This document shows, piece by piece, positions 1 to 10,203 of a stretch of 64,000 nucleotides of DNA (position 1 is its first letter; each line of letters starts with the position of its first letter). The stretch covers positions 5,003,001 through 5,067,000 of the forward strand of contig NZ_CP118225.1 of assembly GCF_028768465.1 (NCBI RefSeq), written 5' to 3'. The notes beneath the pieces are model-generated. The model was not told the DNA's origin and made no database searches. It was given only the letters and a program-made list of their open reading frames with translations. The translations under genes and the position numbers were made by a program. This DNA is from Rhodopirellula sp. P2. GTDB taxonomy: Bacteria > Planctomycetota > Planctomycetia > Pirellulales > Pirellulaceae.

Positions 1-600
1 TGGCAGCCCACTCAGGTCATTCATGCCATCGCCGATGCGACCATCACCGTGGTGGGTGGCGAAATCACTTCCGGCGTCACCACGGCAGGAGGCTTGGTCT
101 CCGTCGCGGCGACCCGAGTCGACAGCCCTCGCTACAACACCGACCTCGGCGAAGACGTCAACGGCGACGGGGTCGTCACCGCCTTGGATGCACTGCAAGT
201 CATCAACGACTTGAATGCCAACGGCGACCGCACCCTGACCTTCGCCGAAACCACCGGCTCCAAAATCGACGTCACCAACGATGGCAATGTCTCCGCATTG
301 GATGCGTTGCGAGTCATCAACAAGCTCAACGAACTCGACAGCGAATCAGAACCCGCCGGCGAATTTGTTGCGAATGCTCAATCTGGCAGTGCATCCGGCA
401 GCAACTCAGCGGAATCGAATTCATCCGATTCGAATGGTCTCGCTGCCTTCTCTCATGCGACGAACAATTCCCTCGCATCACTTGACGTGCCCCAGCCAAC
501 GTTCGACCACCAAGGTTCCAACGACGCCATCTTCCGTGATGACAAAACGCTCGGTGAGATCCTCGGTCTGGAATCGAAATTCATCGCTTCGGACGCCTGA
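1..600 (+). CDS. C-terminal part of a large exported protein with a type I dockerin-like domain
   Basis: The reading frame is open from the first base, so the gene begins outside the window. About 55 residues in, two calcium-loop repeats follow each other: DVNGDGVVTALDALQVIND and, about 40 residues later, DVTNDGNVSALDALRVINK. Both have the D-x-N/D-x-D/N-G spacing and the following helix typical of dockerin type I repeats. A Ser/Asn-rich linker and a short acidic tail ending FIASDA follow. In planctomycetes such dockerins sit at the end of very large cell-surface or secreted proteins; no cohesin is visible here, so the partner is unknown. What the missing N-terminal part does cannot be told. 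Confidence 0.85.
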   Translation, partial: WQPTQVIHAIADATITVVGGEITSGVTTAGGLVSVAATRVDSPRYNTDLGEDVNGDGVVTALDALQVINDLNANGDRTLTFAETTGSKIDVTNDGNVSALDALRVINKLNELDSESEPAGEFVANAQSGSASGSNSAESNSSDSNGLAAFSHATNNSLASLDVPQPTFDHQGSNDAIFRDDKTLGEILGLESKFIASDA

Positions 601-829: not shown

Positions 830-1573
830 TCACCGGACAGGCGTGAGCAGACTCTTCACCTGGCTCTTGGGATGGAGCACTCGCTCGGAGCGATCGCTTC
901 GGAACGTGAATTCCAAGGGCGAATCCACCGAGGCAAGCGATGGATCCAACTCCGCCAGCAAGCCGGCCTTTTGAAATCGCTTGAGCAATTGCAGCGGATT
1001 GCAACAACTGAATTTCTCCAGAACGCTGCTTTGGCATCGGGCCGCTTCTGTGAAAGTCAGCTCGCGTTGTGCCGCAATGGCTTTGATGGACAGGCCGTCA
1101 CAAACCGAGGGAAGCACAAGGCGTTCTTGTTCGGTCAACGTCGCCAGTTCCTCTTTCAGTTGCAGAGCCAATTTCATCCGCATTTCGCGATCTTCACCAA
1201 TGGAAAGAGCCGTCTTCACCAGCGAAACGAATCTCTCGGGATCCACTGGTTTTTCAAGCAAATCCAAAGCGCCCAGACGCATCGCTGCCGTGGCGATCGG
1301 TACCGTCGCGACTCCCGAGACCAAGATGATTGGAATGTCCAAGCAACGTTCCAGCAATTCTCGCTGAAGCGAAGGGCCATCCAGCCCCGGCATCCGAACA
1401 TCCACAACCAAACACGCGATCTGGCTGCTGCCGAGTTCCGCCAAAAAGGCATCCGAATCAGCGTACTCTTTCACTGCGATACCGACTGACGCCAGAATTC
1501 GCCGAATTGCAATGCGATCGACCTCGTTATCGTCGACCAGGTGTATCGTCGGCGATTTGGGTTCATCACTCAT
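830..1573 (-). CDS. Response regulator, FixJ/LuxR type
   Basis: A 247-residue two-component response regulator. The receiver domain (about residues 8-125) has the acidic pair in HLVDDNEVD, the phospho-acceptor Asp58 in VVDVRMPGLDG, Ser86 in LVSG and Lys108 in LLEKPVDP. The C-terminal half resembles a LuxR/FixJ helix-turn-helix (LTEQERLVL, then LSIKAIAAQ), but the recognition helix is poorly conserved. The ATG at 1573 is chosen because AAGGA lies about 8 bases upstream and the receiver fold starts directly after it; an in-frame upstream start would add 17 residues with no match. No histidine kinase gene is adjacent, so it is an orphan regulator. It is divergent from the GH5 gene, with 250 bases between them that could hold both promoters. 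Confidence 0.85.
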   Translation of the reverse strand: MSDEPKSPTIHLVDDNEVDRIAIRRILASVGIAVKEYADSDAFLAELGSSQIACLVVDVRMPGLDGPSLQRELLERCLDIPIILVSGVATVPIATAAMRLGALDLLEKPVDPERFVSLVKTALSIGEDREMRMKLALQLKEELATLTEQERLVLPSVCDGLSIKAIAAQRELTFTEAARCQSSVLEKFSCCNPLQLLKRFQKAGLLAELDPSLASVDSPLEFTFRSDRSERVLHPKSQVKSLLTPVR

Positions 1574-1823
1574 GTCTAAATCCTTTTCGAATAACCAACG
1601 AACTTTGCATGCCCGCAAAGCCAAACATCGCCCCGATCAAAAATACGACATGGAAACCTGCGGGGCGACGCAATGTCGACGTAATGAACACAGGAACACT
1701 CCCCCCCTGTTGGTTATAACGATCGAATGGCGCATCCGCGCTTCAAACGTAACCTATTGTTCTGAAAGGGCAGACGCATAGACACATCCAACACAGACCA
1801 AGACTTCTTTGGGGCAAAAGACA

Positions 1824-2924
1824 ATGAGACCGATCTACTGGGGGCCGTTCCTATTCGTCATCGTGATCAGTTTGCTGCGTGTGCACGAATCATCACAGGC
1901 GGACCACGTTCTCAAAGAAGACTTTCCAGCTTCGATCGGAGTCTCAATTGCTGGACCTGAATTTGGAACTCACCGTTCCGATTTTTCAAACCTGAATCCA
2001 GGCGTCTTTGATGTCGACTACACCTATCCAGGGGCGTCAACGATTCAGCCATTGTCACGGCGTGGGATCCGTTTGATGCGATTGCCGGTTCGATGGGAGC
2101 GTCTGCAGCCGGCTCTCGGGGAAGAACTCGACCCACAAGAGCTTGACCGCTTGGTTCGAACCATCGCTCAGGTCCGAGCATCCGAAGCTCGCGTGATCAT
2201 CGATCTGCACAACTACGGCCGGTACCGCACACTCACCGCCCGGGGGACACGTGATTGCATCATCGATCAAAAGATCGACGGGCAAACCCCGGTCTCAAGT
2301 GAACACTTGGCTGATCTTTGGACCCGGTTGGCAATCCATTTCCACGACAATGCGACCGTGATTGCCTATGGGTTGATGAACGAACCCCATGACATGGGAA
2401 GCTCCCGATGGAACGAAATTTCTCAGCGTTCGGTCGATGCGATTCGAGCAGTCGACCAACAAACATGGCTCTTGGTTGCCGGTGATGCCTGGTCCTCCAC
2501 GGAAAAATTCTCCCGCGTCAACGGGCCGGACGCTTGGATCAACGATGCGACGGGACGCGTGCTCTACGAAGGGCATTGCTACTTGGACCACGATTCCAGC
2601 GGTCAATACAAAATGTCCTTTGCTGAAGAAGCACTGAACGACCCCCGGATCGGGCAACGTCCTGCCAAACGATTGCAACCGTTCGTGGATTGGTGCCAAC
2701 GCAACCAGGTCCGAGGATTTGTGGGTGAATTTGGTGTTCCCGTTGACGACGCCGATTGGAACAAACTGTTGTCGAAAATGCTGGTTCAGATGGAAGCCGC
2801 GGATCTTGGCGGGTGCGTTTGGGCAGCCGGGCCGTGGTGGGCGGACTACCCGCTCTCAGTGGAGGTGGGCCACTCCCATGGAATGGATCCCTTGTCTTTG
2901 CAGAAAATAATTGACCGGAATTGA
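1824..2924 (+). CDS. Exported glycoside hydrolase family 5 (cellulase-like)
   Basis: A 366-residue enzyme of GH5 type (endo-beta-1,4-glucanase or mannanase-like), expected to retain configuration while cutting beta-glycans. An N-terminal hydrophobic segment (YWGPFLFVIVISLL) followed by ESSQA is a signal peptide. The acid/base Glu187 lies in YGLMNEPHDM and the nucleophile Glu302 in FVGEFGVP; Arg and His of the family appear in LMRLPVRWERL and IIDLHNYG. An ATG at 1824 is preferred over a TTG 15 bases upstream. Its stop overlaps a possible TTG start of the following cellulose synthase gene, so the two are probably co-transcribed. This suggests a role like BcsZ, the endoglucanase of bacterial cellulose operons, although BcsZ is GH8. 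The substrate is inferred from context. Confidence 0.87.
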   Translation: MRPIYWGPFLFVIVISLLRVHESSQADHVLKEDFPASIGVSIAGPEFGTHRSDFSNLNPGVFDVDYTYPGASTIQPLSRRGIRLMRLPVRWERLQPALGEELDPQELDRLVRTIAQVRASEARVIIDLHNYGRYRTLTARGTRDCIIDQKIDGQTPVSSEHLADLWTRLAIHFHDNATVIAYGLMNEPHDMGSSRWNEISQRSVDAIRAVDQQTWLLVAGDAWSSTEKFSRVNGPDAWINDATGRVLYEGHCYLDHDSSGQYKMSFAEEALNDPRIGQRPAKRLQPFVDWCQRNQVRGFVGEFGVPVDDADWNKLLSKMLVQMEAADLGGCVWAAGPWWADYPLSVEVGHSHGMDPLSLQKIIDRN

Positions 2925-2989
2925 AGCCCGGCAGCCAAGTCGGACCTAGGCTTTCGGACTTGCCCCCATTCTCGTCTGACAAGCCACCC

Positions 2990-5900
2990 ATGTTTGGAAG
3001 CTCCAATCGTTTAATCCGTCGCACGTCCATCATTGCCGCCATGTTGGTGTCCGTGGTCTACCTCGGATTTCGCGGCGCGTTCACGCTGAACTTTGACAGT
3101 GTGTACGCAACCTGTGCCTCGCTCTCGCTGTATGTCGCCGAACTCTACGGCTGCTTGCTGATGCACCTCTACTTTTTCCAAATTTGGGAAATTGTGGAAC
3201 CCGAACCGGTCGCTCCGCTCAAAAACCGAACCGTCGACGTCTACATTCCGACCTACAACGAAGATCCCAGTCTTCTGCGCGGCACCATTTCCGCTGCGCT
3301 CGCGTTGCACTACGAACACGAAACCTACGTGTTGGATGATGGCAACCGTCCCGCCGTGGCGGAGTTATGCGATGAACTGGGCGCGACCTACATCAACCGC
3401 GACACCAATTTGCATGCCAAGGCAGGCAATTTGAATCACGCGATGGGAATCACCTCGGGTGAATTCGTGGTCATCTTCGATGCCGATCACATCTCTCGCC
3501 AGGACTTCATCACCCGACTGCTGGGTTACTTCGAAGACGACCGTTTGGGATTCGTCCAGACGCCTCACTCGTTTTACAACTTCGACAATTTCCACGGGAC
3601 ATTGGACTACGGACGCCAAACCTACTGGGAAGAAGGCGAGATCTTTTACAATGTGATCCAGCCTGGCAAAAACTACTGGAACGGTGTCTCGTTCTGCGGC
3701 AGTGCCGCGATGTTCCGACGATCCGCCTTGGAAGATGTCGGTTGCGTGGCGACCGAAACGATCACCGAAGACATGCACACCGGTCTTCGGCTGCATGCCA
3801 AGGGCTGGAACTCGCTCTTCGTGAATGAACGGTTGGTCAGCGGCCAAGCTGCCACCGATGTCACGACATTCAACACACAGCGTCTGCGTTGGGGTGAAGG
3901 AAATCTCGGGATCTTTGCCCATGACAATCCCTTCACCATGCCAGGACTGACCTTGGCTCAGCGTCTGTGCTACTTGGGCTCGATGCTCAGCTGGACGACC
4001 GGAATTCAGAAGCTGCAATTGTATCTGGCGCCAATGTTGATGCTGTTGACCGGCGTCGCACCGGTTGCGGAACTGTCTTGGACGCTGGGGATCATCACGT
4101 TGATCTACATGCTCACGATCTGGACAGCCGTGACGGTGACGAGCAATGGACACGGCAATTTGATTGGCACCGAATTGACACACATGGCATCGTTCTGGAC
4201 TCAAATCCAATCCTGCTATCGCGCCGTCTTCAAACGCAAAAAAACCACCTTCGTCGTGACGTCCAAACGAGGCCGGCAAACCAACAGCATTCGCCGCTTC
4301 ATCATGCCTCAATGCCTGTACATCGTCGGCAGTGCCCTGGCCATCGCGTGGGCATCGACCAAATACTCGATCGGGCTGACCCATGACTTGACTGGAGTCC
4401 TGGTTGGTTCCCTGCTGTTGTTGAGCCAGTGTTGGTTTGCTTGGCAAGTGATCCAGCGTTCGCTTCGCGCCTCCGACGAAACCGAGGAAGGATGGCGTCA
4501 CCCTTGTGCTCTGCACCTGACGTATCAACTCGGCGAGGAAGATGACCGTCGCATTGGAACGGGTGTGACGTGTGATCTCAACGAAGCGGGGGTGGGATTC
4601 CATGCCTTCGAAGATCTACCAATCGACCAAGACGTGACGTTGACGATTTCGGCGATGGGACTGACCGCGACTTGTCGAGCGAGATTGTGTCAAAAATCAC
4701 CGGGTTTGCAGTCGCAGTCCACGCGAGACGGCAACGCGACCAGCTATCGCTACGGGTGCGAATTCGTGGATCCGTCGACCGAAGCACTGGGCGTGATCTG
4801 GCGACTGTGTTCGGACTATGCCACGACGCGGATGTACGATCAATTCGAATCGCGGAAAAAGCATCGCGACGACTCAATCGAGGTCCAGTTGGCTGCCAGT
4901 GAAATGGATGATGAACGCATCAATTTGCCCATCATACTGTCAGACGGATCGACCAAGTATGAACCCACCGTCACGGAAGGGATCACAGCCCACGGGTGCA
5001 TGGTCCTTGCCACCAATTGCCCGGATGTCGGTACCGAAACTCGTTTTGTTCTGACCACCCCACTGGGACGAATCGCGGGAACGACGGTCGTCACCGCGAT
5101 TCATCAGGTGAACCTGGGATGCGTGCCGCTGCAGCTAGCGGAGTTGGACTTTGTGGGATTCACCGGGGAAGGCCGAAGCCTGCTGCTTTCTCTGTGCAAC
5201 GCCAGTGATCAGAATCGTGTCAGCGCCGTGGTGAAACTTCAGCCACCCGAGCGTCAGTTGCCTCGCGCTCGTCCAGCCATCTTGACTGGAACGCTCTCCA
5301 TCGCCGCGTCTTTGATCGCAATCTTCGGGACCTTGCTTTGGAACCAGGATGATATCCTGTTGAACTTCAATCAACAGGCAACTGTCGTCCCTCAAGAAAC
5401 TCGCATCAAACTCGCCTCGTTGTTGGCCAAGACCGTTGAGGACCCAGATGCAGATGAACAACGGATCGTTCGATTGAGAGAGATCTTCCAGAACTTAGGG
5501 GATCACCAAAGCATCGCGAAACTGGATCGATTGATCATGGATCGAGATGTGACCACCTTCACCGCGAAATTCTGTCGAGCACAGACCTTCGACGGCGCCG
5601 AAATGTATGATCGCGCCCTGCCGATCTACGCTGACCTGCTGGAGCATGTCGATGAAGCCAGCGATGATCAAGAACGCAACGAATTGCTTATCTCAGCTGG
5701 ACGAAACCATGCCAACCGAGGCGACATCACTCGAGCGGTGGCCTTGTTCGCTCGTGTGGACCCGCTGCTTGTCAAAGACGACCCCGCATTGCGTCGTGAA
5801 TACGCAGGCCTGTTGGCCGAAGTTGGCCGAGTCGAAGAAGCCATCTCATTCTTGACTGAAGAGGATGATTCCGAACCCAGCTATGAAGACCGCCTGCACC

Positions 5901-6511
5901 GAGCGCACCTTTACGCGTCTGCTCGGCATTTTGATCAAGTGATTGAGCATTGTCATGCTCTGCTCGCGATTGATTCGAAGGACCCCGCTGTTCTGCAACT
6001 GCTTGCCAACGCCGCACTGGGTCAAGACGACTTTGAATTGGCGATGACGACCATGGATCGCTTGGTGCAGCTCCGTCCCGATGACGCAGACGCCCGCCGT
6101 CTGCATGCCCTGACCTGTCTGTGGAATCACGATGGGGAGCGTGCGATGAGATTGATCGAACCGATTTTGGTAGCAAATCCAGACGATGCGGAATTGCAAC
6201 GATCGTTTGTCGAGGCCAGTCTGCTGGTGGACCAACTGTCACCCTCTCAGTCATCCCAACTGCAACGGGTTGCTTTGGCAATCTCAGACGGACCCGATGC
6301 AGGCGTCGCAGGACAAACGATGGTCGCGGCGATGGCACGGCACAATCAAACGGAGTCCTTGATTCCTTTCTTAACTCAAATGGTTGAAGAACGGCCCAAT
6401 GAGGTCAAACTGCGTTTGCAATTGGTGGACCTGTTGGAATCGGCAGGCGATTTCCGCTCCGCCGAAAAGCATTTGAATTGGTTGCTGACCGCGACCACCG
6501 CCTCGTTGTAA
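2990..6511 (+). CDS. bcsA: Cellulose synthase catalytic subunit BcsA with PilZ-like domain and C-terminal TPR domain
   Basis: A 1173-residue inner-membrane GT2 synthase that would polymerise UDP-glucose. Two N-terminal membrane helices precede the GT domain, with DD in VLDDGNRP (116-117), FDADH (Asp164, Asp166), TED (259-261), QRLRW (297-301) and the gating-loop FVVTSK motif (421-426) diagnostic of BcsA. Further helices lead to a PilZ-like region (about 490-620) with DLNEAGVG in place of D/NxSxxG and no clear RxxxR, so c-di-GMP binding is doubtful. A second beta-rich module (about 645-740), a membrane helix (765-784) and about 380 residues of TPR-like helical pairs follow. Known BcsA proteins are about 700-900 residues without a TPR tail. 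The start is uncertain: a TTG at 2921 overlapping the GH5 stop would add 23 residues. Confidence 0.9.
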   Translation: MFGSSNRLIRRTSIIAAMLVSVVYLGFRGAFTLNFDSVYATCASLSLYVAELYGCLLMHLYFFQIWEIVEPEPVAPLKNRTVDVYIPTYNEDPSLLRGTISAALALHYEHETYVLDDGNRPAVAELCDELGATYINRDTNLHAKAGNLNHAMGITSGEFVVIFDADHISRQDFITRLLGYFEDDRLGFVQTPHSFYNFDNFHGTLDYGRQTYWEEGEIFYNVIQPGKNYWNGVSFCGSAAMFRRSALEDVGCVATETITEDMHTGLRLHAKGWNSLFVNERLVSGQAATDVTTFNTQRLRWGEGNLGIFAHDNPFTMPGLTLAQRLCYLGSMLSWTTGIQKLQLYLAPMLMLLTGVAPVAELSWTLGIITLIYMLTIWTAVTVTSNGHGNLIGTELTHMASFWTQIQSCYRAVFKRKKTTFVVTSKRGRQTNSIRRFIMPQCLYIVGSALAIAWASTKYSIGLTHDLTGVLVGSLLLLSQCWFAWQVIQRSLRASDETEEGWRHPCALHLTYQLGEEDDRRIGTGVTCDLNEAGVGFHAFEDLPIDQDVTLTISAMGLTATCRARLCQKSPGLQSQSTRDGNATSYRYGCEFVDPSTEALGVIWRLCSDYATTRMYDQFESRKKHRDDSIEVQLAASEMDDERINLPIILSDGSTKYEPTVTEGITAHGCMVLATNCPDVGTETRFVLTTPLGRIAGTTVVTAIHQVNLGCVPLQLAELDFVGFTGEGRSLLLSLCNASDQNRVSAVVKLQPPERQLPRARPAILTGTLSIAASLIAIFGTLLWNQDDILLNFNQQATVVPQETRIKLASLLAKTVEDPDADEQRIVRLREIFQNLGDHQSIAKLDRLIMDRDVTTFTAKFCRAQTFDGAEMYDRALPIYADLLEHVDEASDDQERNELLISAGRNHANRGDITRAVALFARVDPLLVKDDPALRREYAGLLAEVGRVEEAISFLTEEDDSEPSYEDRLHRAHLYASARHFDQVIEHCHALLAIDSKDPAVLQLLANAALGQDDFELAMTTMDRLVQLRPDDADARRLHALTCLWNHDGERAMRLIEPILVANPDDAELQRSFVEASLLVDQLSPSQSSQLQRVALAISDGPDAGVAGQTMVAAMARHNQTESLIPFLTQMVEERPNEVKLRLQLVDLLESAGDFRSAEKHLNWLLTATTASL

Positions 6512-6753
6512 CCGAGCCAATGATGGCCAGCCCTTGCCAAACGATCGCCTGAACATCACGTGACATAGCGACAGGCCCCAACCTTCCCAGTTCGACACCG
6601 CGCGGCTTCCGCCATGCCGAAACGTTCGTCACTTGTTCGCTGCGACGAGGCGCGGCGGGCAACTCATTCAACAGAAATGCGGGGTGGCCGGAAGTGACAT
6701 GCTAGCCCGTGACCCCCACGCACGGTTCATCAACAGACGGTGAGCAACGACAA

Positions 6754-9700
6754 TCAAGGGAACCGGATCGTGAACAAGCCGCCCACGCCCACACTGTTGT
6801 AGACCTCCGAGAGGATGACCGAGGTTTTCACCTCTGCACTCAACCATCCCTGGTGATCGCGATGCGCGGCTGCTTCGAACAGCCCGTAGCCAACGCTGTC
6901 CGAGTCGATCCGCACGCCACCGTAGGCCGACACCCAATGGGAATCGGCACCATGAAAGTTGTGAGGACTCAGCCACTTGCGGACTTCCATGCCACTGGAC
7001 GCAAACGTGAAGGCAGACGGACTGAAATACGGATGAAGAATCCCAGTCAAATCATTTGGGTCAGCGTTGAAGCGAGTTGATTCGTTGAAGGCGATCAAAT
7101 TCCAATCCGTCTTCCATCGCAATTGTGTGCGTCCTGGAATCAGCAAGTAGTTGTTCTGAACCAACACTTCCTGTGAGAAGTTGTCATCGGAATAGCCCGC
7201 CAAACGGTACATCGCGGCCGCATCCCAACGCCAAGAAAAGTTCGTTGCTGCGCTGAGTTCCAACCCACCACGGAAGGTGTCTTGGCGGATCGATTCACCG
7301 TTGGCAGCGATATTTTCAAGGAATCCAACCAGACCGAGATGGACGTCCGCCGGCGTTCGCCAGTTCAATCCCGCACGAAACGGGACTCGTGTTGAGAAAC
7401 CTTGATCGTATTGTTCCAACTCCGCCAAAGCGAACAAACGCAGGTGATCCCATGGTTTGGTTTGGAAACCAAGAATCGCCACGTTCCCATCCGCGTCTTC
7501 GCCTTGCTTGGGCCGCAAAAAGCGATGGGCATAGCCTGCAACGAGGTATTCGTCCTGATCTCCAATCGGTTTGACGACCCGAGTGTCCAATCTCAACGAA
7601 GTCAAATCGGTCAATCCTTGCCGGCCCGATCGAAATTCAAACTGAAAGGAGTTCAAAATCTGGGGACGAGATTCCAGTTGCATTCGCCGTTTGGCAATCA
7701 AAGCCTCGGTGTGGCACGGATCCTGACTGAGCAAGCAGTCGTACCGTGCGATGGCTTTTTGAGTTTGGTTCAACCCGGAATGGACTTGGCCCAGATCGAA
7801 CTGGGCTTCCTGGTTGGTGGGGTCCAGCTGAAGCAACGATTGATAGTTGGCCAGCGCCGTTCGAGGCTTCCAGTCCTTGTAGTACTTGGCCTTTCGCTCC
7901 GCTTCGATGAGTTGCAAGCGGTGGCTTGCCTGTTCGTATTCGACCTGCAACGTATTCAGGTCGCTGTGCATCAAGCTCGCACCAGGCAAAAACTCCTGCG
8001 GACGATGGCGTGCCTTGGCTTCCGCATACGCGTGGTTCGCCGCATCCACGCCCTTCCAAGCGTAATGCATGCGAGCATTTTCGATCCGTGCCGTCTCGTG
8101 CTGTGGGAACGCCGTCAGAATCATGTCGAACGACTTGTTCGCCAAGCGGAAGTCATTCGTGCGGGTGTAGGAACGAGCCAACCCCAAGCGGGCGCGGGTG
8201 TTCATGGGCGATGCCGCCAGCGCCGAAACGAAACTCGACCGATCGTCACAATCGCCGGAGCATCGATTGCACATCGATCGGGATTCCCCCAGCAAGATCA
8301 TCAAGTAGACATTGCTCGGGTCGAACATCAACGCTTGCTGCAACAATCTCTCCGCCAACTTGCACTCACAATCGGCCATGGCCAATTGAGCGATCGTCAC
8401 CCGATCTTTCGTCATCGGGGCAAACGAATTCCGCTCGTCCGACAACACTTGCTCGGCCTCCGCCTCGCGGTCCAGTGCGATCAAACAGCGATACAGCCCG
8501 TAGCGAAGCTTGGCCGAATCTCCTCCCTGCATTCGCCGTGTTTCTTGGAGCGTGTCCTCGGCTTCCGCAAAGCGTCCCTGCTTGAGCTGAGACAGTCCGA
8601 GCGTGGTCCGAAGCTGAATCTTGGTGGCGGCATCAAGTGCAGTCCCTTGGGCACCCGCCAAGGCAGCCACGCAGACAGATTCGGCGGAGGCATAATCCCG
8701 TCCACGCAGCAAGATGTCCGCAATCGCCGCTTCATGGTTCAGCGATGTCGTATGCGATGACTGACGCAGCGTTTGGATCGCCTCACCGAGTCGGTTTTGT
8801 TGCAGCAACGACTCGGCCAGCATTTGGACCGAGTGCGACTGCTTTGTTCCCAGATTGCGGAACACGGTTTCGGCAGCCCGATCGTCTCCAATCGCATGGT
8901 AGAGCGTTCCCAAACCAATTTGTGCTAACTCATCGTCTTCGTTCTCGACCAAAAGGGAGCGATAGATTGCAAACGCTTTGGCATGTTCGCCCACCGCGGT
9001 TTGATAGTTGGCCGTTTCGAGCCTCACCAACCGATGGTCGGGTGTTCCCGCGTTGGTCTCTGCAATGGAATCCAACACCGCTTTTGCACCGTTCATGTCG
9101 AACAGACGCACCAAAACACGGACAATTTTGGTTTGAGTGGCGACGTGGTTGGGTCGCAGAACGGACGCGGACTGGTACACCATCAATGCCAACCGGTCGG
9201 CACCGTCTCGATACAACGTGTCGGCCAGTTCAATCCGACTGTCAAAGCTGAACTCCGGATTCGATTGCAGCTCCTCCAAATACCGATGGATGACCACGTT
9301 CTCACCCATTCGCGAATTCGCGAGCACCAGCATCACGAGGACTTGCGGGTTGCCGGGATCGGATTCGTACAGCCGGAGCAACCCGGCGATGGCATCTCCG
9401 GGTTGCTGGATCTCGATCAGCAGTTCGGCGATTGCGAGTTCGTTCGGCAACGGCAATCCAGGCAGATCTCGCAGGTGTCGCTGATAGACCTCCAACGCTT
9501 CGACAACGTTGCCTTGCCAGGCCAGCACGCGAGCAAAGGAAATCAGAACGTCCACATTCGCTTCACCGCTTTCGACGATTTTGCGAAGCGAACGTTCCGC
9601 ATTGAGATGCTTCCCCTGTTGAATCAACAACTCCGCATGCAGGATGAGGAACGGAGTTGAATCGGGAAACTGGTCGACCAGCACCTTCAACGATTGCTCC

Positions 9701-10203
9701 GCCTTCGTGAGATTGCCCGATTGAATCAGCAACCCGATGTACTCAATCTTCAAATCCGTTTGGCCGGGAAACTCTCGAAAGAGATCTTCAAACCGTTTGA
9801 GAGCCAGCGGAATGTCCCCCAGGCTCACGGCATTGCGGACCGCGCGAAGCAGAATGCCCTGACGGATCTCTTGATCCGAATCGGGGGTTGGCAGATCCTC
9901 CGGTGGCCGAGACGGGGCGGGAAGTGTCTCCAGTTCAACCGCGTTGTCTTTCGCAACCCTGGCTCTCTCCTTGTGTTGAGCCCATCGAATGGAGATCCCC
10001 TCCCGTTCGCGAACGGATTGCGATTGAGAGACCGAAGGCAAACGAAATGGGGTGGAGAATCCATCTTCGCCGATCGTGGGGGCCACCCACGATGCCGTCG
10101 ACAGAACCACAGCCATGCAGACACCGAACGAGCGCACGCAATGACGCGATCGCAAATGGGGTTCGGCAGCGGTGATCCGACGACGGTGCAAATCAAGTTT
10201 CAC
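6754..10203 (-). CDS. TPR-repeat outer-membrane protein, BcsC/PgaA-like exporter
   Basis: A 1149-residue protein. After a hydrophobic export segment (CMAVVLSTASWVAPTIG) there are about 750 residues of TPR-type helical pairs (for example LKIEYIGLLIQSGNLTKAEQ). From about residue 850 the sequence changes to alternating polar/aromatic strands and ends in TIRFP, as outer-membrane beta-barrels do. This order, periplasmic TPR scaffold then C-terminal barrel, is that of BcsC and PgaA, which pass cellulose or poly-GlcNAc across the outer membrane. It is convergent with the BcsA gene (240 bases between), which supports the export role. The start is a GTG at 10203 without a visible Shine-Dalgarno; an in-frame ATG at 10116 would cut into the signal region. 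Assignment to BcsC in particular is inference. Confidence 0.8.
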   Translation of the reverse strand: MKLDLHRRRITAAEPHLRSRHCVRSFGVCMAVVLSTASWVAPTIGEDGFSTPFRLPSVSQSQSVREREGISIRWAQHKERARVAKDNAVELETLPAPSRPPEDLPTPDSDQEIRQGILLRAVRNAVSLGDIPLALKRFEDLFREFPGQTDLKIEYIGLLIQSGNLTKAEQSLKVLVDQFPDSTPFLILHAELLIQQGKHLNAERSLRKIVESGEANVDVLISFARVLAWQGNVVEALEVYQRHLRDLPGLPLPNELAIAELLIEIQQPGDAIAGLLRLYESDPGNPQVLVMLVLANSRMGENVVIHRYLEELQSNPEFSFDSRIELADTLYRDGADRLALMVYQSASVLRPNHVATQTKIVRVLVRLFDMNGAKAVLDSIAETNAGTPDHRLVRLETANYQTAVGEHAKAFAIYRSLLVENEDDELAQIGLGTLYHAIGDDRAAETVFRNLGTKQSHSVQMLAESLLQQNRLGEAIQTLRQSSHTTSLNHEAAIADILLRGRDYASAESVCVAALAGAQGTALDAATKIQLRTTLGLSQLKQGRFAEAEDTLQETRRMQGGDSAKLRYGLYRCLIALDREAEAEQVLSDERNSFAPMTKDRVTIAQLAMADCECKLAERLLQQALMFDPSNVYLMILLGESRSMCNRCSGDCDDRSSFVSALAASPMNTRARLGLARSYTRTNDFRLANKSFDMILTAFPQHETARIENARMHYAWKGVDAANHAYAEAKARHRPQEFLPGASLMHSDLNTLQVEYEQASHRLQLIEAERKAKYYKDWKPRTALANYQSLLQLDPTNQEAQFDLGQVHSGLNQTQKAIARYDCLLSQDPCHTEALIAKRRMQLESRPQILNSFQFEFRSGRQGLTDLTSLRLDTRVVKPIGDQDEYLVAGYAHRFLRPKQGEDADGNVAILGFQTKPWDHLRLFALAELEQYDQGFSTRVPFRAGLNWRTPADVHLGLVGFLENIAANGESIRQDTFRGGLELSAATNFSWRWDAAAMYRLAGYSDDNFSQEVLVQNNYLLIPGRTQLRWKTDWNLIAFNESTRFNADPNDLTGILHPYFSPSAFTFASSGMEVRKWLSPHNFHGADSHWVSAYGGVRIDSDSVGYGLFEAAAHRDHQGWLSAEVKTSVILSEVYNSVGVGGLFTIRFP

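Follow-up and report, generated by a model that had tools for sequence, protein, structure and literature searches.

The DNA analyzed here (the window: 64,000 nucleotides of Rhodopirellula sp. P2, contig NZ_CP118225.1, positions 5,003,001 to 5,067,000) encodes a BcsA-like synthase of glycosyltransferase family 2 (GT2) that continues, in the same chain, into two PilZ-type domains, a further membrane helix and a tail of tetratricopeptide repeats (TPRs) predicted to be periplasmic. We consider it probable that this protein works in a Bcs-like exopolysaccharide machine without BcsB, in which the tail stands in for BcsB and docks its stalk to a BcsC-like porin. Because BcsB is missing and the BcsC-like porin is kept, the tail would seem to substitute for BcsB or to act as a docking subunit of the inner membrane.

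The synthase frame is open throughout and intact (1196 amino acids). Its start is likelier to be ATG 2990 than TTG 2921, which overlaps the glycoside hydrolase family 5 (GH5) frame ending at 2924, because the 95%-identical copy in the same-genus genome G180 begins at the position equivalent to ATG 2990 in the list of open reading frames (ORFs). On the full frame, Pfam matches exceed their cut-offs for GT2 (89.6 bits), Cellulose_synt (46.5), PilZ (27.3; cut-off 22.5) and TPR_19 (60.8; cut-off 25). The motifs DDG, DAD, TED, QRLRW and FVVT-x-K are invariant across 11 aligned fused homologues, all of which also match TPR_19 (11/11) and most of which match PilZ (8/11). The first six entries returned by a phmmer search of the PDB are bacterial BcsA sequences, and the top eight Foldseek relatives of the synthase model are likewise bacterial BcsA (9b8v, E = 3.2e-35; TMt 0.59-0.69), with plant CesA and later hyaluronan synthases ranked below them. 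Against the curated CelA equivalog TIGR03030 the protein scores 369.8 bits, under the cut-off of 699.1, and it is therefore termed BcsA-like and not filed as an equivalog. The ratio of nonsynonymous to synonymous substitution rates (dN/dS) between the window and G180 is 0.016 for the GT part, 0.053 for the PilZ part and 0.057 for the tail.

The AlphaFold2 model of the synthase, built on a 34-row alignment and numbered from ATG 2990, has a predicted local distance difference test score (pLDDT) of 86 and a predicted template modeling score (pTM) of 0.67. It places beta domains at residues 509-592 and 647-724, and after the helix at 762-783 it shows 23 helices up to residue 1167, mostly in TPR-like pairs; self-comparison of the tail gives its best match at an offset of 34 residues. 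An odd number of membrane helices precedes the tail, three pairs and then a seventh, with helix 391-414 presumably interfacial by analogy with the BcsA layout. With the GT domain, the gating loop and the PilZ domains taken as cytoplasmic, the seventh helix would cross outward and the TPRs would therefore lie in the periplasm. The charge bias across this helix is as the positive-inside rule expects: counted over 24 fused rows, 94 K/R and 33 D/E fall within the 20 residues that precede it, and 46 K/R and 70 D/E within the 20 that follow. Together with the stand-alone counterpart described below, helix count and charge bias strongly suggest a periplasmic tail. The original prediction, which had proposed BcsA signatures, two beta modules, a membrane helix and a periplasmic TPR tail, is borne out in these parts, the last of them at the level of prediction.

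BcsB was sought with PF03170 in 30 genomes: 22 with the fused gene (including G586, where it is split, and G639, where it is truncated), four unfused genomes of genus g132 and four canonical ones. No convincing BcsB is present in any of the 22. The search finds none in the genome of the window, and at E 0.01 it has no match in 18 of the 22; the remaining four give matches of 16.2-20.6 bits over about 60 residues in ~2800-residue frames elsewhere, and a single one of these matches attains the 21-bit cut-off when combined with its neighbors. No BcsB is found by PF03170 in the four g132 genomes either. By contrast, all four canonical bcs genomes of the phylum (G286, G392, G435, G470) have BcsB at 350-365 bits adjoining bcsA.

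The original prediction pointed out that TPRs belong to BcsC in known Bcs systems. Pfam, the model and Foldseek all identify a separate BcsC-like TPR-barrel protein encoded convergently next door (Table 1), which rules out the tail as a displaced or replaced BcsC and leaves BcsB as the missing partner. The accompanying idea, a link of synthesis to export within one chain, holds only in part, the porin remaining a second chain. In its model (1149 amino acids; pLDDT 74, pTM 0.49) the BcsC-like protein has helices at residues 110-844 followed by 16 strands at 848-1147, which is the architecture of BcsC. Foldseek ranks E. coli BcsC (9b8a, E = 5.5e-12; 9b8h, E = 5.1e-11) under a number of eukaryotic TPR proteins, and these two entries are the only TPR-barrel proteins recognizable by title among the best 50 rows. 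The curated BcsC model NF008520 gives 37.4 bits against a cut-off of 858, with its best stretch in the TPRs, hence our use of the term BcsC-like. With BcsB absent, the synthase's own stalk is the obvious remaining partner for the TPR solenoid of this porin.

Neighboring genes were counted over the window and 20 fused loci (12 family loci and 8 others), 21 in all. The BcsC-like protein lies beside the fused synthase in 20/21 (exception L024), in two overlapping frames in L022 and with a weak barrel match of 38 bits in L085. A GH5 gene is in the same locus in 19/21; of the exceptions, L027 was read for only 1.4 kb upstream, and in L028 the GH5 gene is on a different contig (L030), next to a fragment of the synthase. 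The nearest solved structures of the window's GH5 protein are named endoglucanases and cellulases. Five loci (L080, L081, L082, L083 and L100) have two GH5 genes each, flanking the synthase-porin pair on both sides.

A survey of planctomycetes for the same tail, as had been suggested, shows the fused chain recurring in several planctomycete families and forming one clade. In family f1, 13/199 genomes match the synthase (P0001) at E 1e-20 and 12 have the fused gene in complete or fragmented form; among the same-genus genomes listed it is found in 3 of 13. CelA-type matches at E 1e-60, many of them unfused, occur in 28/392 genomes of the phylum and 19/396 of the order. Fused-length frames also occur in families f34, f59, f112 and f116. 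In f34, 24/81 genomes match, of which 21 span residue <=41 to >=1183 and three (G913, G543, G875) are partial; 20 of the full-span frames are stop-free past query residue 1182 and the 21st has one internal stop. Among the best 80 loci of a wider contig scan, the fused members are three Planctomycetota metagenome-assembled genomes (MAGs) and the truncated L101. The latter (4777-7587 on a 7.6-kb contig) comes from a MAG labeled Bacteroidales and branches inside the otherwise planctomycete clade, and misbinning or transfer is therefore indicated.

The possibility, raised with the original prediction, that a frameshift or an assembly error has merely joined two genes carries a practically negligible probability. 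The unfused lineage does have both parts as separate genes, and the synthase of G586 is read in two overlapping frames, but the recurring single open frames of f34 and the tail dN/dS of 0.057 rule the artefact out. The G586 frames (L089, 8137-9960 and 9902-11986) meet in the first PilZ domain and may reflect a true split, a frameshift or an assembly error.

A GT tree of 58 rows was computed without L098, which shares its genome with L084, and without L093, which is too short; above L116 only 14 chosen loci were considered, and L029, L094, L156, L161 and L169 were dropped beforehand. All 24 fused rows group with two further rows, truncated or split, in a single clade that has a Shimodaira-Hasegawa-like approximate likelihood ratio test (SH-aLRT) value of 100. 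The sister clade is unfused and comprises Verrucomicrobia L106, Methylomirabilota L102, Brocadia L104, Planctomycetota L103 and rows of family f46. In six of its seven loci a separate gene adjoining bcsA encodes a protein of 137-559 amino acids whose N-terminal membrane helix leads into TPRs, while the seventh, L102, stops at a contig edge; four of these stand-alone proteins exceed a Pfam TPR cut-off. Glycoside hydrolase family 8 (GH8) is present in the L103 and L104 loci. Because TPRs will match one another, a junction profile consisting of the last helix and about 110 residues was made. Against five stand-alone proteins it gives a probability of 95.7 (E = 1e-8), and the alignment starts in the second half of the helix and continues into the TPRs; two TPR-only, BcsC-like controls give 70 and 83 (E = 4e-5 and 9e-6). 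The tail thus corresponds to the separate inner-membrane-anchored TPR subunit of the sister lineage, and a single old fusion of bcsA with its neighbor, or a single old split, would explain the data in either direction. Another bcs fusion is seen in L112 (7820-10801), where a BcsA-like protein from a proteobacterium is joined to a BcsS domain (PF17036, 76.9 bits).

In the proposed machine, the GT2 core would polymerize a beta-glucan and thread it through its own membrane helices, with the two PilZ-type domains located in the cytoplasm. The further membrane helix, packed beside the synthase, would take the protein chain outward, where about 11 TPRs would form a periplasmic stalk that docks to the TPR solenoid of the BcsC-like porin, and the polymer would be handed from synthase to porin. 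The GH5 protein, in the slot held by a GH8 of BcsZ type in two unfused operons, would perhaps trim misdirected polymer. The product is probably cellulose, and the tail most likely takes over the docking role of BcsB towards the porin. It is an even question whether fused and unfused systems make up a separate BcsB-free class of cellulose-type secretion, in which an inner-membrane-anchored TPR subunit, separate or fused, replaces BcsB as activator and as docking partner of the porin, with two chains spanning the envelope from the catalytic site to the exit pore.

Several observations weigh against docking to the porin and against the equation of the tail with the stand-alone subunit. For one fused gene, the second copy of G107 (L024), the stretch read contains no porin. 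Tail identity is about 20-45% outside G180, and BLAST at 1e-5 finds no match to the tail in 4 of the 12 family loci; with such fast divergence, no conserved docking surface is visible. The sister relation of the fused and unfused clades has an SH-aLRT value of only 81, and among the six stand-alone proteins L092 and L096 fall just under the Pfam TPR cut-offs. When hhalign is given whole tails, it aligns the small stand-alone proteins with the TPRs at the C-terminal end (95.8, E = 6.9e-9); if L106 is included, the match of the junction profile begins past the helix (95.5), so that the junction test is confounded by TPR likeness.

A poorly conserved tail surface would also suit a stalk that mainly recruits the cell wall or periplasmic enzymes, be it the GH5 protein or modifying ones, on the pattern of the AlgK or PgaA TPRs, and that does not link to the porin. 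The TPRs of AlgK are described as binding the modifying enzyme AlgX, AlgK reportedly contacts Alg44 (PMC9734138), and the GH5 gene is nearly always adjacent. The BcsC-like protein is, however, kept as constantly, and the absence of BcsB leaves the docking role vacant; we consider recruitment as the main function rather unlikely. A different beta-glycan, such as curdlan or a mixed-linkage glucan, would leave the tail periplasmic and make only the cellulose reading wrong. The shortfall against the CelA equivalog speaks for it, as does the proposal that pseudomonad BcsA-like proteins make cyclic beta-glucan (PMC10237404), but the invariant BcsA motifs, the first rank of BcsA structures in Foldseek and the two cellulase-type families that accompany the synthase (GH5 here, GH8 in two unfused operons) make such a product unlikely.

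The E. coli BcsB is described as a hexameric semicircle (PMC11379886), and a BcsB-less system might organize otherwise, with the TPR stalks of several synthases packing into arrays or clusters without specific docking to the porin. Tail length would fit this, at 384-422 residues past the helix in 21 of the 23 complete rows (truncated L101 left out); the conserved porin neighbor speaks otherwise, and the anchored TPR protein that the sister lineage encodes separately, down to 137 amino acids, does not suggest arrays, so that we find self-assembly quite improbable. The two long tails measure 961 residues in G026 and 1664 in G048, the latter made of TPR super-repeats of ~210 residues (offsets 210, 421, 632, 842 and 1053 in an ungapped scan); BLASTP self-comparison of the long tails gives no off-diagonal match. 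The G048 chain (L028, 12401-19462, minus strand) is a partial synthase of 2353 amino acids, the first part of the gene seemingly being on the other contig, L030. A tail serving as a periplasm-spanning length ruler is unsupported, as the porins of G048 and G026 (1254 and 1398 amino acids) are no shorter than others.

Both beta modules of the synthase are PilZ-type, as judged from the model and from profile comparison. The second module of the 24 fused rows matches the second domain of eight unfused relatives with a probability of 98.0 (E = 2.6e-13), and the first and second modules match each other within the fused rows at 95.6; fused second against unfused first gives only 20.7 and unfused first against unfused second 80.6. 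Pfam finds two PilZ stretches in L103 and three in L092 among the unfused relatives. A PilZ domain that binds cyclic di-GMP (c-di-GMP) carries RxxxR and D/NxSxxG. In the window, PilZ 1 is without the first Arg and carries DLNEAG, and the degenerate second domain has neither RxxxR nor DxSxxG, both of which are present in the second domain of the eight unfused rows. The claim that the PilZ part has lost its c-di-GMP motif is therefore partly right: the first Arg of RxxxR is gone in 5/24 fused rows, every one of them in the clade to which the window belongs (the window, L017, L018, L019 and L020), but DxNExG in place of DxSxxG is no recent loss, since it is common to 19/24 fused rows and to all 8 planctomycete unfused rows. 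The exceptions are L028, L083, L085 and L100, which retain both RxxxR and DxSxxG, and L027, which has ExNExG. The genome of the window has seven GGDEF matches and, as its sole other PilZ match, a separate 228-residue tandem-PilZ frame at G000:C1:5890568-5891152, and for this reason c-di-GMP is probably present in the cell. It may not act on this synthase, and we infer that c-di-GMP control is absent in the window's clade.

Table 1. Features of the synthase locus, in window coordinates, with the evidence used for each.
Feature	Position	Strand	Evidence
GH5 endoglucanase-like protein, hydrophobic N-terminus, directly upstream of the synthase	1809..2924	+	ORF, Pfam, structure relatives
BcsA-like synthase with PilZ domains in tandem, a membrane helix and a TPR tail predicted to be periplasmic	2921..6511	+	ORF, Pfam, alignment, AlphaFold model, Foldseek
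Two N-terminal membrane helices (model residues 4-64: 4-32, 38-64)	2999..3181	+	Model
GT2 catalytic domain with DDG, DAD, TED, QRLRW	3233..3919	+	Pfam, alignment, model
Four more membrane helices (322-354, 364-384, 435-460, 467-492)	3953..4465	+	Alignment, model
FVVTSK gating-loop motif	4250-4267	+	Alignment
PilZ domain 1, with DLNEAG and, in the window's clade, without the first Arg of RxxxR	4493..4810	+	Pfam, alignment, model
Second PilZ-type beta domain, degenerate motif	4922..5203	+	Profile comparison, model
Last membrane helix (model residues 762-783), preceded by the positive and followed by the negative side	5273..5338	+	Charge count, model
TPR tail, ~11 repeats, predicted periplasmic	5345..6490	+	Pfam, offset scan, model
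BcsC-like protein, convergent neighbor: TPR solenoid 7672-9876, 16-strand barrel 6763-7662	6754..10203	-	Pfam, model, Foldseek

A FixJ-like response regulator adjoins the GH5 gene (830-1624, minus strand), with relatives in the same place in G180 (95%) and G141 (47%), and a frame open at the window start (1-600, plus strand) holds a dockerin type I domain by Pfam.

A lineage seemingly without BcsB, with a BcsC-like porin and a stalk on the synthase, would offer a direct test of whether BcsB serves for activation, chain guidance or porin docking, and a two-chain model of trans-envelope polysaccharide export; it also points towards a planctomycete beta-glucan. Compared with the BcsA-BcsB-BcsC systems of E. 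coli and R. sphaeroides, the BcsA-type GT2 core, the FxVTxK loop, PilZ after the membrane helices, the TPR-barrel porin and a cellulase gene close by are alike, whereas the present system has no convincing BcsB, a membrane-anchored TPR tail on the synthase, two PilZ-type domains, GH5 and not GH8, and scores under the cut-offs of the curated BcsA and BcsC models. Alg44, in the alginate system, runs from PilZ through a membrane helix into a periplasmic part. The alginate machinery Alg8-Alg44-AlgK further resembles ours in its TPR protein AlgK, but is described as three separate proteins with AlgK linked to the outer membrane (PMC9734138), and the likeness is one of layout. In E. coli, TPR1 of BcsC is described as docking onto the tip of BcsB, and the BcsC barrel is likewise 16-stranded (PMC11379886).

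Cellulose secretion is typically said to require BcsA together with BcsB (PMC5727187). The cyanobacterial BcsB-less "type IV" system (XcsA, HlyD-like XcsB, TolC) shares with the present one a PilZ synthase, the lack of BcsB and another protein that fills the periplasmic role, but uses an HlyD-like fusion protein and TolC, as described (PMC12430437), in place of a TPR tail and a BcsC-like porin. In E. coli NfrB-NfrA a GT2 synthase is likewise paired with a TPR-rich outer-membrane protein; the accessible account names no BcsB, assigns MshEN and not PilZ to the synthase, and mentions no TPR tail on it (PMC8669469). Fused bcs subunits are described for Zymomonas (BcsAB, BcsZC; PMC7112194), and BcsK, another TPR protein, is credited with the function of BcsC (PMC6559018); the accessible parts of both accounts report no fusion of a synthase with TPRs. 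None of the papers listed by searches of open-licence PMC, judged by title, start of the abstract or selected passages, seems to describe such a fusion, subscription journals having been outside the search. From these sources, BcsB-less systems, TPR-rich GT partners and bcs fusions are already known, and what appears to be new is the fusion of a synthase with a TPR stalk.

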